Shown here piece after piece: positions 1,116 through 8,972 of a DNA stretch of 45,912 nt. The stretch lies in assembly GCA_022702125.1 (NCBI GenBank), contig JAKOND010000338.1:1-45912 (forward strand), read 5' to 3'. Position numbers and translations under genes: made by a program. Numbering within the stretch: the first letter of the stretch is position 1; every line of letters begins with the position of its first letter. Origin of the DNA: Burkholderiaceae bacterium (GTDB lineage Bacteria; Pseudomonadota; Gammaproteobacteria; Burkholderiales; Burkholderiaceae_C). Under the pieces are notes generated by a model. That model was not told the origin of the DNA, made no database searches, and saw only the letters and a list, made by a program, of their open reading frames with translations.

Positions 1116-3572
1116 TCAGGCGCGCATGCGTGCGCCGACGCGGGTCTTCAGGGCCTCGATGGCCTGCTGCACCGCGGCATCGATCTGGGCATCGGTCAGC
1201 GCGGCCGCCCCGCCGTTGATCCGCAGCCGCAGCGCCAGGCTCTTCTCGCCCGCGCCGAGCCAGGACGCCCCCTCTTTCGCCGCGTCCGCCGCCGGGCGGT
1301 ACACGTCGAACAGCGTCACGCTGCGCACCAGGCCACCGTCCGCCTGCGCGCCCAGGATCGCATCCTGCACCTGCGCATGGCCCACCCGGTCGGCGACGAT
1401 GACCGCGATGTCGCGCTCGATGTCCTGGTGGCGGTCCACCGGCTGGAACACCGGCACGCGGCGCTGCAGCAGGGCATCGAGTTCCAGCTCGAACAGCACC
1501 GGGATCTGCGTGGCCGCCAAGCCGTAGCCCTGGCGCCAGCGCGGATGCAGTTCGCCGACGAAGCCGATCTCCCGGCCATCGAGCAGCACCCGCGCGCTGC
1601 GGCCGGGGTGCAGGGCGGGATGCTCGGCCGCTTCGAAGCGCGGCTGCAGCGGTGCCAGCAGCGCCTCGATGTCGCCCTTGGCGTCGTAGAAATCGACCGC
1701 CTGCCGACGGCCGTCCCACTGCAGCGCGTCGGTGCGGCCCGCGGCCAGGCCGGCCAGCCGCATCGGCTGGCGGTAGCCCCGCACGGTCGTGTCGCTGTCT
1801 GCCACCGTGGCGTCGCGCCGGAAGACGCGGCCGATCTCGAAGACCCGCACCCGCTCGGCCTTGCGGTCGAGGTTGAACTTCAGCACTTGCAGCAGCGACC
1901 CCATCAGCGACGAGCGCATGACGTTCATCTGGCTGGCGATGGGGTTGAGCAACCGGATCGGCTCCGGATTGCCGGCCAGCTCGTGCTCCCAGCGTTCCTC
2001 GACGAAGCTGAAATTGATGGTTTCCTGGTACCCGAGGCCGGCCACCTGGCGGCGCAGCGCATGGATGCCGCGGCGCGACTCGGGCTGCAGCTTCGCGGTG
2101 ATCGGGGCCAGCGGCGGCGTGGTGGGCAGATTCTCGTAGCCGACGACGCGCGCCACCTCCTCGATCAGGTCTTCCTCGAGGGCGATGTCGAAGCGGTAGG
2201 ACGGCGGGGTCACGACCAGCACGCCCCCATCGTCCTGCTGTTCCGCCTCGGCCACGCCCAGCCCCAGGCCGGCCAGCGCATCGCGGCATTGCGCCAGGGT
2301 CAGCGGCATGCCGATGACCTTCGCGGCGCGGGCCACCCGCAGACGCACCGGCGGCTGCTCCGGCATGCGGACCTGCAGGTCGTCGACCGGGCCGGGCTCG
2401 CCGCCGCAGATCTCCAGCACCAGCGCGGTGATGCGTTCGAGGTGCTCGACCAGATGACCCGGATCGACGCCGCGCTCGAAGCGGTGGCCCGCGTCGGTCG
2501 AGAAGTTGAAGCGGCGCGAGCGGCCGGCGATGGCCGCCGGATGCCAGAACGCGGCCTCGATGTAGATGTTGGTCGTGCCGTCGGTGATGGACGAGGCCTC
2601 GCCGCCCATGATGCCGGCCAGCGACTCGACCTGCTGCGCATCGGCGATCACGCCGACCTGCGCGTCGAGCGCGACCGTGCTGCCGTTGAGCAGTTGGAGC
2701 TGTTCGCCCGCGCGCGCCCAGCGCACGTCCAGCGGCGCATGGATCTTGTCGAGGTCGAACATGTGCGACGGACGGCCGAGTTCGAACATCACGTAGTTCG
2801 AGATGTCCACCAGCGGCGCGACCGCGCGCTGGCCGCAGCGGGCCAACCGCTCCACCATCCACTGCGGGGTGGTGGCCCGGGGATTCACGTTGCGCACGAC
2901 GCGGCCGGCGAAGCGCCCGCACAGGTCGGGGGCCGAGACGGTGACCGGCAGGCGCTGGTCGTGCATTGCCGGCACCGCCGGGAAGGATGGCGCCTGCAGC
3001 GGCGCCCCGGTCAGGGCCGCCAGCTCGCGCGCCACGCCGTAGACGCTCAGGCAGTGCGCCAGGTTGGGCGTGAGCTTCAGGGTGAAGAGCGTGTCGTCCA
3101 GGTTCAGCCAGTCGCGGATGTCGGTGCCGACCGGCGCATCGGCCGCCAGCTCCAGCAGCCCGCCGGTGTCCTCGCCGATCCGCAGTTCGCGCGCCGAGCA
3201 CAGCATGCCCTGGCTTTCCACGCCGCGCAGCTTGCCGACCTTGATCAGGAAGGGCTTGCCGTCCTCGCCGGGCGGCAGTTCGGCCCCGACCAGCGCGCAG
3301 GGTACCAGGATGCCAGCGCGCGCGTTGGGCGCGCCGCAGACGATGTTCAGCGGCGCGTCCTGGCCGACATCGACCTGGCACACGCGCAGGCGGTCGGCAT
3401 TGGGATGCTGCTCGGCCTGCAGGATGCGGCCGACCACGATCTTGCGGAAGGCGGGCGCCACCGGGCGCAGTTCCTCGACTTCCAGTCCGGCCATCGTCAG
3501 GGTATCGGCCAGCGCCTGCGTATCCAGCGGGGGATTGCAAAAGGCGCGCAGCCAGGATTCCGGAAATTGCAT
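1116..3572 (-). CDS. pheT: Phenylalanyl-tRNA synthetase beta subunit
   Basis: The 818-residue beta chain of the alpha2-beta2 PheRS, which charges tRNA-Phe in the cytoplasm together with PheS. Domains in order: an N-terminal tRNA-binding OB-fold around residues 40-150 ([19 protein letters not shown], then [19 protein letters not shown]), the B3/B4 editing region (about 200-400), the B5 domain, the catalytic-like core, and a C-terminal ferredoxin-like anticodon-binding domain ending near VTLFDVYRP and the ALTDAQID segment. Length is close to E. coli PheT (795). The start ATG at 3572 follows an upstream GAGAGATCCC. It lies 63 bases after pheS and 11 bases before ihfA, so the three form one transcript. 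Confidence 0.97.
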
Positions 3573-3635: not shown

Positions 3636-4691
3636 CTAGCGGAACTGGCGCAGGAAGCGCAGGTCGCCCTCGAAGAACAGGCGCAGGTCGTTGATGCCGT
3701 AGCGCAGCATGGTCAGGCGGTCCGGCCCCATGCCGAAGGCGAAGCCGATGAAGCGCTCCGGATCCAGCCCCATGTTGCGCACCACGTTCGGATGCACCTG
3801 GCCGGACCCCGCCACCTCCAGCCAGCGGCCGGCGAGCGGGCCGCTCTGGAACTGGATGTCCACTTCGGCGCTGGGCTCGGTGAAGGGGAAGAAGCTCGGT
3901 CGGAAGCGCAGCACCAGGTCGCGGCTCTCGAAGAAGGTGCGGCAGAAGTCGGTGAATACGACCTTGAGGTCCTTGAAGCTCACGTTCTCGCCGATCCACA
4001 GGCCCTCGCACTGGTGGAACATCGGCGAATGGGTCGCATCGCTGTCCACCCGGTAGGTGCGGCCGGGGGCGATGACCCGAATCTCCGGCATGCCCTCACC
4101 GGCATCGAGCGCGGCGCGGTGGCGCTTCACATGCTGGACCGCGTGGCGGATCTGCATCGGGCTGGTATGGGTGCGCAGCAGGTGCGGCGGCGCGTCGGGG
4201 CCCGCGCCCTCGACGTAGAAAGTGTCGTGCATCGAACGCGCCGGATGGTCTTCCGGCGTGTTGAGCGCGGTGAAATTGAACCAGTCGGTCTCGATCTCCG
4301 GACCGTCGGCCACCTCGAAACCCATCGAGGCGAAGATGCCTTCGATGCGCTCCAGCGTGATCGATACCGGATGCAGCCCGCCCGGGCCGCGCTGCCGCCC
4401 CGGCAGGGTGACATCCAGCGCCTCGGCCTGCAACTGCGCCTGCAGTTCCGCATCGGCCAGCGCCTGGCGGCGCGCATTCAGCGCCGCCTCGATGGCCTGC
4501 TTGGCCAGGTTGATCGCTGCCCCACGGGTCTTCTTCTCGTCCACCGGCAGGCTCGCCAGGTCTTTCATCAGGGCGGTGATGCGCCCGGATTTCCCGAGGA
4601 AGCGCGCCTTGGCATTCTCCAGATCGGCGGGCAACGCGGCCTGCGCGAAATCCGTCTCGGCGCTGGCGACCAGCGCGTCCAACTCGTTCAT
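3636..4691 (-). CDS. pheS: Phenylalanyl-tRNA synthetase alpha subunit
   Basis: The 351-residue catalytic chain of PheRS. An N-terminal coiled-coil (about residues 1-90, ending in [19 protein letters not shown]) is followed by the class II core, with motif 2 near [11 protein letters not shown] and [18 protein letters not shown], and motif 3 near [18 protein letters not shown]. Start choice: ATG at 4691 has GAAAGA about 6 bases upstream and matches the usual N-terminus (MNELDALV). In-frame start codons at 4733 and 4710 would run through the terminator hairpin at 4712-4743 and look less likely. The 124-base gap from rplT holds that hairpin, so expression may be tuned separately from the ribosomal protein genes. 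Confidence 0.96.
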
Positions 4692-4711: not shown

Positions 4712-4743
4712 AAAAAGGGCCAGGACTCGACAAGCCCTGGCCC
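4712..4743 (-). terminator. Rho-independent terminator or attenuator before pheS
   Basis: GGGCCAGG (4717-4724) pairs with CCTGGCCC (4736-4743), with two further inner pairs, and on the minus strand the stem is followed at once by five T (4716-4712). It lies between rplT and pheS, 21 bases before the pheS start codon. Read on the minus strand it has full intrinsic-terminator form and can either stop or attenuate operon read-through into pheST-ihfA. Confidence 0.75.
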
Positions 4744-5632: not shown

Positions 5633-6226
5633 TCAGGCGGCAGCGGATGCCGGGGCATCGGAAGCACGTGCCTGCACGGGCTTCTTGCGACCCGGCGCGA
5701 TCATCATGATCATCTGCCGGCCTTCGAGCTTGGGGAACTGCTCCACCTGGATCAGGTCGCCGAGATCGGTTCGGATGCGCTGCAGCAGGGCCATGCCGAT
5801 TTCCTGGTGGGTGATTTCCCGACCGCGGAAACGCAGCGTGATCTTGCACTTGTCGCCTTCCTCGAGGAAACGGCGAATGTTGCGCATCTTGATGTTGTAG
5901 TCGCCGTCGTCGGTACCGGGCCGGAACTTGATTTCCTTGACCTCGATGACCTTCTGCTTCGACTTCGCTTCCGCCGCCTTCTTCTGCTCCTGGTACTTGA
6001 ACTTTCCGTAGTCCATCAGGCGGCAGACCGGCGGATTGGCGGTCGCGGCGATTTCCACCAGGTCCACGTCCAATTCACCCGCCATGCGCAATGCATCTGC
6101 GAGGCTCACGATGCCGAGGGGCTCGTTCTCCGGACCGGAGAGTCGAACCTCCGGGGCCATGATTTCACGGTTCAGGCGGTGCTTCCGCTCTTCGCGGTGA
6201 CGGCGGTCACGAAATTCAGTAGCGAT
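5633..6226 (-). CDS. infC: Translation initiation factor IF-3, ATC start codon
   Basis: A 197-residue factor that binds the 30S subunit, checks the start codon and initiator tRNA, and keeps the subunits apart. The N-terminal domain ([19 protein letters not shown], then [13 protein letters not shown]) and C-terminal domain ([20 protein letters not shown], then [12 protein letters not shown]) are both complete. Start: homology runs upstream of ATG 6160 to ATC at 6226-6224. An in-frame TGA lies two codons further up (6232-6230), and there is no ATG, GTG or TTG in between. AAAAGGA lies 8 bases before the ATC. Rare AUU or AUC starts are known for infC and let IF-3 limit its own synthesis. The C-terminal Ala-rich tail is slightly long. 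Confidence 0.95.
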
Positions 6227-6302: not shown

Positions 6303-8210
6303 TCATCGCTTGAGGTCGATGTCGCTGGCGAGCTTCTCTCGGAAGCCTTCCAGCGTCATGACGCCGAGGTCTACATTGCCTCGGGCACGGACTGCAACGG
6401 AACCCGCCGCCTTCTCCTTGTCGCCCACGACGAGGATGTAAGGAGGCTTTTGCAACGAATGCTCTCGTATTTTATACGTAATCTTCTCGTTGCGCAGATC
6501 GAGCTGCACCCTAAGCCCTTGTTGCTGCAGCATTTTGGCAATTTCGCGACAGTAATCGGCCTGGGCATCGGTGATGTTGAGCACCACGACCTGCACCGGC
6601 GCGAGCCAGGCGGGCAGCGCGCCCGCATGCTGTTCGATCAGGATGCCGATGAAACGCTCCAGGCTGCCGACGATGGCGCGGTGCAGCATCACCGGCCGGT
6701 GGCGCTCGCCGTCCTCGCCCACGTACTCGGCGTCGAGGCGCTCGGGCATCGAGAAATCGACCTGGATGGTGCCGCACTGCCACTGGCGGCCGATGGCGTC
6801 GCGCAGGGTGTACTCGATCTTCGGGCCGTAGAAGGCGCCGTCGCCGGGCGCGATCTGGAATTCGCATCCCGAGGCCTTGAGGCTCTCGATCAGCGCGTGC
6901 TCGGCCTTGTCCCAGACCGCATCGGAGCCGATGCGCTTCTCGGGCCGGGTCGCCACCTTGTAGATGATGTCGGTGAAGCCGAACTCGCGGTAGACCTTCA
7001 CCAGCAGGCTGGTGAAGTCGGTGCACTCCTGCAGGATCTGCTCTTCGGTGCAGAAGATGTGACCGTCGTCCTGGGTGAAGCCCCGCACCCGCATGATGCC
7101 GTGCAGGCCGCCGGTCGGCTCGTTGCGGTGGCACTGTCCGAATTCGCCGTAGCGCAGCGGCAGGTCGCGGTAGCTCTTGATGCCCTGGTTGAAGATCAGG
7201 ATGTGGCCCGGGCAGTTCATCGGCTTGAGCGCGTAGTCGCGCTTCTCCGATTCGGTCGTGAACATGTTCTCGCGGTACTTGTCCCAGTGGCCGGTCTTCT
7301 CCCAGAGGGTCTTGTCCAGGATCTGCGGGCCCTTGACTTCCAGGTAGCCGTTGTCCCGGTAGACCGCGCGCATGTACTGCTCCACGCCCTGCCAGATGGC
7401 CCAGCCCTTCGGATGCCAGAACACCAGCCCCGGCGCATGCTCGTCGAGGTGGAACAGGTCCAGCTCGCGGCCGAGCCTGCGGTGGTCGCGCTTCTCAGCC
7501 TCTTCCATGCGCTGGATGTACTGGTCGAGCTGCTTCTTGTCGGCCCAGGCGGTGCCGTAGATGCGCTGCAGCTGCTCGTTCTTCGCGTCGCCGCGCCAGT
7601 AGGCCCCGGACACCCGGGTCAGCTTGAAGGCCTTCAGGAAACGCGTGTTCGGCACGTGCGGGCCGCGGCACATGTCCACGTATTCCTGGTGGTAGTAGAG
7701 GCCCATGGCCTGCTCGTCGGGCATGTCCTCGATGAGGCGCAGCTTGTAGTCCTCGCCGCGGCTGCGGAACACCTCGACGACCTCGTCGCGCGGCGTCATC
7801 CTCTTGACCACGTCGTAGTCCTGCGCGATGAGCTCCTTCATCCGCTGCTCGATCGCGGCGATGTCTTCGGGCGTGAACGGACGCTCGTAGGCGATGTCGT
7901 AGTAGAAGCCTTCGTCGATGACCGGGCCGATGACCATCTTCGCGCCGGGATAGAGCTGCTTGACCGCATGACCGACCAGGTGGGCGGTGGAGTGGCGGAT
8001 GATCTCGACGCCCTCGTCGTCCTTGGGCGTGATGATCTGCAGGCGGGCGTCCCGGTCGATGCGGTCGCTCGCATCGACCAGGCGCCCGTCCACCTTGCCT
8101 GCGACGGTGACCTTGGCCAGCCCCGGGCCGATGGAGGAGGCGACATCTGCCACGGTGACCGGGCCGGGGTACTGGCGCTGCGAACCGTCGGGAAGCGTGA
8201 TCTGGATCAT
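6303..8210 (-). CDS. thrS: Threonyl-tRNA synthetase
   Basis: A 635-residue class II synthetase that charges tRNA-Thr and hydrolyses mischarged Ser-tRNA-Thr. Domains: TGS at about 1-62 ([16 protein letters not shown]), the editing domain with its metal-type HxxxH at H73/H77 (HSTAH), the catalytic core with the zinc cysteine in MNCPGH and motif 2 in the [15 protein letters not shown] stretch, and the C-terminal anticodon domain ending [10 protein letters not shown]. coli ThrS has 642 residues. The start at ATG 8210 matches the usual [10 protein letters not shown]-terminus; a GTG at 8246 would add 12 unlikely residues. No good Shine-Dalgarno precedes it. It is first in the operon, 70 bases after an attenuator-type terminator. 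Confidence 0.97.
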
Positions 8211-8281
8211 GGGGGATTCGAAGAGGGAAAGAGGAGGGATCGGCACGGATGCCGCTGGGTGCGGGCAGGCGTCCGGAAACG

Positions 8282-8305
8282 AAAAAGCGCGGGGAGCCCG
8301 CGCTT
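8282..8305 (-). terminator. Terminator hairpin in the thrS leader
   Basis: A perfect 9-bp stem, AAGCGCGGG (8285-8293) with CCCGCGCTT (8297-8305) and a 3-base loop, is followed on the minus strand by a run of five T (8286-8282). It lies between the Thr-rich leader ORF (8346-8396) and the thrS start (8210), where a transcription attenuator is expected. Confidence 0.8.
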
Positions 8306-8339
8306 CGGTCTGGATCTGGCTCAGGCAGGCGCGAACGGT

Positions 8340-8356
8340 CCCGCCTCAGCGGCGGG
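8340..8356 (-). promoter_or_regulatory. Hairpin over the leader-peptide stop codon
   Basis: CCCGCC (8340-8345) pairs with GGCGGG (8351-8356), placing the leader ORF's TGA (8348-8346) in the 5-base loop. In leader-peptide attenuators a hairpin in this place is the early pause stem that a ribosome at the stop codon would melt. That role is inferred here from position only. Confidence 0.45.
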
Positions 8357-8396
8357 TCAGGATTCCTGTCGTAGTTCGCGGTGTCATAACCGGCAT
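8346..8396 (-). CDS. Threonine-rich leader peptide of the thrS operon (attenuator)
   Basis: A 16-codon ORF reading MPVMTPRTTTGILTRR, with five Thr codons (ACA, ACT, ACG, ACA, ACC), three of them consecutive. It ends 40 bases before a perfect terminator hairpin (8282-8305) and 135 bases before thrS. GAGAAAGG lies just upstream; a second in-frame ATG at 8387 is better spaced from AAAGG. By the logic of known amino-acid leader peptides, ribosome stalling on Thr codons when charged tRNA-Thr is scarce would let transcription pass the terminator. Content, order and terminator are seen; the mechanism is inferred, and I could not fold the RNA to show the competing antiterminator. Confidence 0.6.
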   Translation of the reverse strand: MPVMTPRTTTGILTRR

Positions 8397-8534
8397 GCCT
8401 TTCTCGCTCTTTCGGATGAAATGAAACCGCTCGATGGTAACAGGCGGCCCCGGGCGTCCGCCACCCAGGAAGCCCCGGTGCCGCGCGCTATCGACCGCGA
8501 CGCAACAGACGTGACGCGCACACGGCAAAAAACC

Positions 8535-8563
8535 TTGGAAACCCGTTTTTTCTCCAGTAGCAT
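8535..8563 (+). promoter_or_regulatory. Candidate sigma-70 promoter for the SWIB gene
   Basis: TTGGAA (8535-8540) and TAGCAT (8558-8563) are separated by exactly 17 bases. Both match four of six consensus positions. Transcription would begin near 8570, about 70 bases before the SWIB start. The region 8397-8534 shows nothing else that I can assign. Confidence 0.4.
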
Positions 8564-8642
8564 GGAAGGAGCCACGTGCACGGCCGAAGGGCCGCCACTT
8601 CCTCGGCGATTCACCATACTCCAAGAAGGGAAAATTCAGACC

Positions 8643-8972
8643 ATGGCCACTGCGAAGAAAGCGCCAGCAACCAAAGCTCCTGCCAAGACCGCGGCGGCTT
8701 CTGCAAGCGTCCCTGCCAAGAAGCGGACTCCGAATCCGGCCTTCATGAAAGCCCTCAAGCCCAGCCCGGCACTCGCCGCCGTCGTCGGCGCCACGCCGCT
8801 GCCGCGCACCGAAGTCGTCAGCAAGCTGTGGGTCTACATCAAGGAACACAACCTGCAAGAGCCGACCAACAAGCGCCTGATCAACGCCGACGCCAAGCTC
8901 AAGGCCATTTTCGAGAAGGACCAGGTGTCCATGTTCGAACTGGCCGCGCTGATCGGCAAGCACGTCAGCTGA
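8643..8972 (+). CDS. Small SWIB/MDM2-domain protein
   Basis: A 109-residue protein. Residues 1-30 are Lys/Ala/Pro-rich (KKAPATKAPAKTAAA), like a histone H1 tail. Residues of about 35-109 form a SWIB fold (FMKALKPSPALAAVVG, LPRTEVVSKLWVYIKEHNLQ, KRLINADAKLKAIF, MFELAALIGKHV). In eukaryotes SWIB domains sit in chromatin remodellers and MDM2; in bacteria, stand-alone copies occur in chlamydiae and some beta- and deltaproteobacteria, with no settled role. The basic tail suggests nucleoid binding, which is an inference. GAAGGG lies 13 bases before the ATG, and a strong terminator follows, so it appears to be a single-gene transcript. Confidence 0.88.
   Translation: MATAKKAPATKAPAKTAAASASVPAKKRTPNPAFMKALKPSPALAAVVGATPLPRTEVVSKLWVYIKEHNLQEPTNKRLINADAKLKAIFEKDQVSMFELAALIGKHVS

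Follow-up and report, generated by a model that had tools for sequence, protein, structure and literature searches.

What controls thrS, the gene for threonine-tRNA ligase, where a short threonine-rich reading frame and a terminator-like hairpin lie in front of it? The question arose for a contig of 45,912 nt from a Burkholderiaceae bacterium (hereafter, the window), in which the sequence-only reading had proposed an amino-acid attenuator upstream of thrS. The thrS gene of Escherichia coli is the classic case of synthetase self-repression by tRNA mimicry: ThrRS binds anticodon-like hairpins in the mRNA and blocks the ribosome, as accounts of that system describe it (PMC3858243, PMC11088916). 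For the window, the attenuator reading gained support from comparison with related genomes, through conserved threonine codons, a conserved terminator and the fit of each spacer to its own terminator arm. We consider it very likely that thrS is subject to ribosome-mediated transcription attenuation governed by threonyl-tRNA charging.

The reading frame initially reported lies on the minus strand, from an ATG at 8396 to a TGA ending at 8346, and comprises 16 codons, five of them for threonine, 186 bases before the thrS ATG (8210). Its presence, threonine content and distance proved exact, but its start was placed differently by the comparison. The true leader is probably a 13-codon form, MTPRTTTGILTRR (8346-8387, minus strand, stop codon 8348-8346), because it is the second ATG (8387), preceded at 10 nt by AAAGG, that is conserved in relatives, and the first is not. 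The start at 8396 was rejected for this reason; what relatives keep is ATGACACCGCGAAC. The Shine-Dalgarno-like AAAGG is part of AAAGGC (8397-8402, minus strand), whose AGGC is able to pair with GCCT at 8330-8327. All five threonine codons are retained in the shorter form (ACA, ACT, ACG, ACA and ACC; 5 of 13 codons). Among the 163 threonine codons of nine window genes, whose families were confirmed by NCBIfam or Pfam profile matches, ACA was absent and ACT occurred three times; the leader holds ACA twice and ACT once. Some known leaders have rare control codons.

We searched 399 genomes of the order Burkholderiales for the 18-mer around the leader start, GGTTATGACACCGCGAAC, allowing one mismatch. 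It occurred once each in 46 genomes, every copy lying upstream of thrS and on its strand, compared with one genome of 399 for a reversed-pattern control. Outside the order, two of 145 genomes, from a set of 150, contained it, both with one mismatch and without thrS nearby, level with two reversed-control hits. In addition, 80 thrS loci were fetched by protein search, where copies of the 18-mer are upstream of thrS by construction. Pooling the genome copies with those of the protein-fetched loci gave 85 loci, with the leader 113-280 nt from thrS (median 146), and 84 distinct leaders. All 84, collected by the word TTATGACACCGCG, open with MTPRT, of which MTPR and the ACA of codon 2 are fixed by the collecting word. 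Beyond MTPRT, 146 of 744 in-frame codons encode threonine (19.6%), while in the other two frames threonine is outside the eight commonest amino acids. Codon choice is always ACA at position 2 and either ACT (72 leaders) or ACG (12) at position 5, with all four codons in use from position 6 on. The number of threonines per leader ranges from two, those of MTPRT only (21 of 84), to nine in one leader from Leptothrix. A terminator-like hairpin with a T tract follows in 84 of the 85 loci, the exception being that of Rhodoferax antarcticus (L029).

Chance controls agreed with this picture. When 1.28 Mb (the window and the 80 thrS loci, both strands counted) was screened for short reading frames in which one amino acid made up at least 30% and behind which a terminator lay, the threonine cases numbered 22 at thrS and none elsewhere; other amino acids did have cases elsewhere, mainly alanine (29). 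Similarly, reading frames with a threonine run were found in 45 of 240 regions upstream of thrS, compared with 0.6 in shuffles, although in one of the 45 (L142) the frame is a tRNA gene read as codons. The next commonest runs were of glutamate and serine, 13 each, which probably derive from an upstream coding sequence ending in ...STEEEQFH.

As a check, the sequence-only reading had proposed to see whether the threonine codons, the terminator and the stop-codon hairpin are conserved in related genomes. The former two are kept, and the hairpin is kept in Comamonadaceae-type leaders, but the MTPR leader is missing from 25 of the 65 loci of Burkholderiales type; this set of 65 consists of the window and 64 protein-fetched loci, after removal of Xanthomonadales-like and Pseudomonas loci, and includes some titles that are only bins and a few short upstream stretches. 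A GCGCGG-type hairpin is retained in 18 of the 25. In one locus (L030) a decayed leader is visible, with ATA replacing the ATG start and the hairpin retained. Ten leaderless loci (L015, L016, L018, L020, L024, L031, L042, L045, L047 and L055) carry a -10-like box and a GCGCGG-type hairpin within 110 nt of thrS.

The start of transcription probably lies ahead of the leader, because a conserved TANAAT box precedes the latter. The box was found in 28 of 40 loci, compared with 1.1 expected from shuffles, and in 27 of the 28 it lies at -57 to -45 from the leader ATG. The window itself has TACCAT at this place (8434-8439, minus strand, 52 nt before the leader ATG) as a possible -10 element, and a looser pattern that covers it was present in 35 of 40 loci versus 5.8 in shuffles. 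A sigma-70 promoter scan of the window returned no full promoter, and the evidence for the -10 element comes from the relatives. Adjoining the leader is a divergent gene for a small protein with a SWIB/MDM2 domain (8643-8972, plus strand; Pfam PF02201, 97 bits). Since this likely SWIB-domain gene is on the other strand, no upstream transcript is evident on the strand of the leader.

Between the leader and thrS, the predicted intrinsic terminator occupies 8282-8305 on the minus strand. The perfect 9-bp stem with five T that had been noted before thrS was indeed found: AAGCGCGGG-CTC-CCCGCGCTT at 8305-8285, with CTC as the loop and a T tract that reaches 8282; of its five T, two pair within the stem. 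Equally confirmed was the stop codon in the loop of a small hairpin, CCCGCC-GCTGA-GGCGGG at 8356-8340 (minus strand), which in the window is better than shuffles (p 0.02) and in which four pairs change on both sides among relatives. Upstream, a start-codon hairpin, GGU-UAUGAC-ACC (8380-8391, minus strand), appears in both the minimum-energy and the consensus folds; its pairs are invariant, hence give no covariation evidence. The remaining elements can be described as four segments on the minus strand. Segment 1, GCGAAC (8374-8379), lies inside the Pro-Arg-Thr codons and is predicted by the same two folds to pair with segment 2, again through invariant pairs. Segment 2, GTTCGCGC (8329-8336), falls in the spacer stretch GTTCGCGCCT (8336-8327) and can pair either with segment 1 or with segment 3. 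Segment 3, GCGCGGGC (8296-8303), is the 5' arm of the terminator plus the first loop base, and together with segment 4 it forms the terminator.

A competing antiterminator, which the sequence-only reading had called for, can be written as GUUCGCGC:GCGCGGGC, the duplex of segments 2 and 3 (-12.0 kcal/mol). Within the window alone it was no better than dinucleotide shuffles (p 0.59, and 0.25 for the duplex of segments 1 and 2), and co-transcriptional folding of the window barely distinguished a stalled ribosome (0.77) from one at the stop codon (0.73) or from shuffled sequence (0.73). Nor, taken alone, did scans around this place in the window find more terminator-like sites than chance (2 and 4 found, 2.1 and 4.7 expected); the call at 8282-8305 is supported because it is conserved in relatives, not by simple scan counts.

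Group tests, by contrast with the window alone, supported the competing pairing. We folded 18 of the 84 distinct leaders, chosen for a similar segment 2, with RNAalifold. The consensus contains AGGC:GCCU, the start-codon hairpin (GGU/ACC), GCGAAC:GUUCGC, the stop-codon hairpin and the terminator. AAAGGC is invariant across the 18 aligned leaders, and the AGGC:GCCU pairs are kept in 17 or 18 of them. Of the 26 consensus pairs, five have both partners changed among the leaders, four of them within the stop-codon hairpin and the fifth at the terminator's inner end. Seventeen are invariant, including the core of the pairing between segments 1 and 2, so that these give no covariation evidence. The stop-codon hairpin is not general among leaders, beating shuffles in only 15 of 84, mostly of the Comamonadaceae type. 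Among 15 leaders picked for display, relatives having GGTTCGCGC with GCGCGGACC would form a longer antiterminator, and the GCTAGTC/GGCTAGT types one of other sequence. In a swap test, the spacer fitted its own terminator arm better than the arms of other species, with 0 of 5000 permutations as good, and its fit to segment 1 gave p 0.04; in a subset with one leader per arm (71), the values were 0 of 5000 and p 0.016, all from permutations that ignore relatedness. In co-transcriptional folding of 83 leaders, the ribosome was assumed to cover the A-site codon and a further 11 nt. The predicted engagement of the terminator's 5' arm at the stage when segment 4 is still to be transcribed was 0.727 with a stalled ribosome, 0.544 with a ribosome at the stop codon, 0.501 without a ribosome and 0.628 with shuffled spacers (paired p 2e-10 versus shuffled; stalled-minus-stop difference p 7e-9 versus shuffles). 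A difference above 0.3 was seen in 18 leaders, always in the expected direction. Judged by duplex energy alone, the pairing beat shuffles at p 0.05 in only 13 of 83 leaders for segments 1 and 2 and 27 of 83 for segments 2 and 3, which we think arises because shuffled GC-rich spacers keep CGCG.

The leader, its hairpins, the pairing options, their conservation and the placement before thrS are features of the sequence and of its comparison with relatives. We infer from them where transcription begins, that the leader is translated, that transcripts end at 8282 and that this responds to threonine, which may combine as follows. RNA polymerase would begin some 35-45 nt ahead of the leader of 13 codons. 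On a transcript free of ribosomes, GCGAAC (segment 1) would pair with GUUCGC (segment 2) and AGGC with GCCU over the Shine-Dalgarno-like site, and the terminator (segments 3 and 4) would form. When Thr-tRNA(Thr) is scarce, a ribosome would wait at threonine codon 2, 5, 6 or 7 (ACA, ACT, ACG and ACA, all rare except ACG) and cover segment 1. Segment 2 would then be free to pair with the terminator 5' arm (GUUCGCGC:GCGCGGGC), allowing readthrough into thrS and the following genes. With ample Thr-tRNA, a ribosome reaching the stop codon would open the stop-codon hairpin and cover the beginning of segment 2, and the terminator would form.

Could thrS here instead be controlled as in E. coli, by ThrRS repressing translation of its own mRNA through hairpins resembling tRNA-Thr? 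We searched for such hairpins by a rule (stem of at least five pairs, T-N-G-T-[AG] loop, within 85 nt of thrS). The gene is the same, and the rule recovered an anticodon mimic in 5 of 5 Pseudomonas loci and in 22 of 48 genomes from other orders (0.3 expected), one of the 22 (L275) being doubtful for its resemblance to an ordinary terminator stem; the 48 are the 49 fetched of 57 other genomes of the class with a match, less one Xanthomonadales-like genome. Against this, the mimic was found in none of the 65 Burkholderiales-type loci, the window included, in none of 11 Xanthomonadales-like loci, and in 3 of 114 loci from Burkholderiales genomes without the 18-mer, where 1.45 are expected by chance. 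The ThrRS-binding hairpins described for the E. coli operator were not found here, and we regard this type of control as highly improbable for the window. Rather, judging from these sequences, self-repression by ThrRS seems to have given way to attenuation in this group. Other known RNA families gave no competing assignment: an Rfam search of the window returned nothing at gathering score and a tRNA search none, positions 8150-8700 gave five weak, unrelated Rfam matches with no T-box among them, and the Rfam threonine operon leader model had no match at gathering score in the window.

In two further explanations the threonine run is secondary or due to chance. The region could be a structured RNA to which ThrRS, some other RNA-binding protein or ribosomes at initiation bind, with MTPRT kept for the sake of the RNA and the threonine run secondary. 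This would account for conservation at synonymous positions (codon 5 is ACT in 72 and ACG in 12 of 84 leaders; codon 2, ACA, is fixed by the word), for the 21 of 84 leaders with only two threonines and for the start codon inside a small predicted hairpin. The nucleotide conservation, however, also fits a segment 1 locked to segments 2, 3 and 4. Moreover, threonine is enriched at variable positions with all four codons in use, threonine runs recur in leaders that begin differently, such as MFKRTTTTRISR and MAFRTTTTGISTLA, and the tRNA-Thr anticodon mimic was found in none of the 65 loci, leaving the structured RNA unlikely. Less likely still is a plain terminator, or an mRNA 5' hairpin, beside a chance reading frame, serving constitutive partial termination or transcript stabilisation. 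Such a hairpin would agree with terminator-like sites not exceeding shuffles in a simple scan and with its retention in 18 of the 25 leaderless loci. It does not explain why 84 distinct sequences share the leader peptide, its position and its codons, or why threonine leader-terminator cases number 22 at thrS versus 0 elsewhere in 1.28 Mb; and with the likely SWIB-domain gene on the other strand, no same-strand transcript from upstream is evident.

How far would attenuation reach? The sequence-only reading had coupled ThrRS, IF-3, L35, L20, PheRS and IHF-alpha to tRNA-Thr charging. All genes lie on the minus strand: thrS (6303-8210; NCBIfam TIGR00418, 726 bits), infC for IF-3 (5633-6160; TIGR00168), whose real start may lie farther upstream, rpmI for L35 (5208-5411; TIGR00001), rplT for L20 (4816-5178; TIGR01032), pheS (3636-4691; TIGR00468), pheT (1116-3572; TIGR00472) and a gene for an IHF/HU-family DNA-binding protein, ihfA by position (727-1104; Pfam PF00216, 87.7 bits). 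A second terminator-like hairpin, GGGCCAGG...CCTGGCCC-TTTTT (4712-4743, minus strand), lies directly before pheS, and by eye a similar one is present in most of 45 displayed regions (72 in all). In those 45, no phenylalanine leader was evident by eye before pheS. Control of thrS, and probably of infC-rpmI-rplT, is plausible; the extension to PheRS and IHF-alpha found no support, and threonine control of pheST-ihfA is doubtful because of the second hairpin, so that these genes may be separate. As the genes for IF-3, L35 and L20 follow thrS, the supply of threonine could bear on the cell's capacity for translation.

Attenuation of synthetase genes is already known. In E. coli the pheM leader peptide precedes pheST, and in enterobacteria threonine codons of the thrL leader of thrABC control a terminator. 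The arrangement described here resembles pheM/pheST in placing a leader peptide, an antiterminator and a terminator before an aminoacyl-tRNA synthetase operon, but with threonine and thrS in place of phenylalanine and pheST. With thrL-thrABC it shares threonine codons and a terminator, whereas the gene downstream is here a synthetase gene. Accounts of peptide attenuation at synthetase or related genes include the classical case of pheST and the leuS and trpS attenuators of Streptomyces (PMC1262725) as well as a histidine leader of hisS*/hisZ in bacilli (PMC2965389); the leuS, trpS and hisS*/hisZ leaders concern, in these accounts, other amino acids, genes and phyla. A further likeness is a short leader with threonine codons, thrL, proposed upstream of thrS in Streptomyces lividans TK24 in 2021 (PMC8079986). 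As portrayed there, it (MKRVRPFLETTPGFVPAR) differs in having two threonines, a leaderless transcript and one hairpin without a U-rich tract, in one actinobacterial strain. The literature covered, mainly titles and the openings of abstracts, yielded no thrS leader peptide in Proteobacteria, with Lopatovskaya 2010, the likeliest precedent, and Vitreschak 2004 outside this coverage; the terms leader peptide, thrS, attenuat and threonyl are absent from the main text of a Burkholderia cenocepacia start-site paper (PMC4603805). A proteobacterial thrS leader would be a new and widespread case. Being compact and without an Rfam match here, the element, with its set of leaders and losses, should be useful for studying how RNA sensors are replaced.

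Leaders of different sequence may extend the picture. Among 115 Burkholderiales genomes without the 18-mer, two gave no match and the other 113 gave 114 thrS loci, one genome giving two. Thr-dense short reading frames were found in 30 of these loci and none in 84; of the 30, those of L142 and L241 are the tRNA-Val gene itself read as codons, and three (L148, L202, L233) are doubtful. Clear examples are MFKRTTTTRISR, MAFRTTTTGISTLA, MSFRTTTTGTLNQG, MQLNRTTTTS, MFRTSTTTQS and MPRTRTTTGFFSRRG. Runs of three threonines occurred in 16 of the 114 regions versus 0.25 in shuffles, or in 15 after dropping the tRNA reading L142. In 11 of 12 Xanthomonadales-like loci (L013, L028, L041, L048, L054, L058, L061, L065, L067, L076 and L244), a conserved GCG[TA]GCGACATG accompanies a reading frame of 6-8 codons, beginning MSTT... 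in six and MDTT... in two; of 10 such loci covered, 7 have a terminator of GGCGC type, and this element is a candidate for a second, separate threonine leader. The comparison suggests that much of the order, and perhaps Xanthomonadales, may sense uncharged tRNA-Thr via a stalled ribosome instead of by tRNA mimicry.

Of the 114 loci without the 18-mer, 80 have a tRNA-Val(GAC) gene at most 330 nt upstream of thrS, and so do 42 of 51 families; where a leader is present there, it comes after the tRNA. More speculatively, Burkholderiales may have lost the tRNA-mimic operator and come to use a leader attenuator that doubles as a start sensor, reading both initiation and Thr-tRNA charging in an IF-3 operon; elsewhere the leader would follow tRNA-Val, maybe sharing its transcript, and Xanthomonadales may have the separate MSTT.../MDTT... 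version. We hold this wider scheme only tentatively and think it somewhat doubtful as a whole; its dual sensing is proposed because AGGC can be held by GCCU and because every MTPRT leader collected retains threonine codons 2 and 5. The tRNA-Val(GAC) gene is found upstream of thrS in other orders of the class as well.
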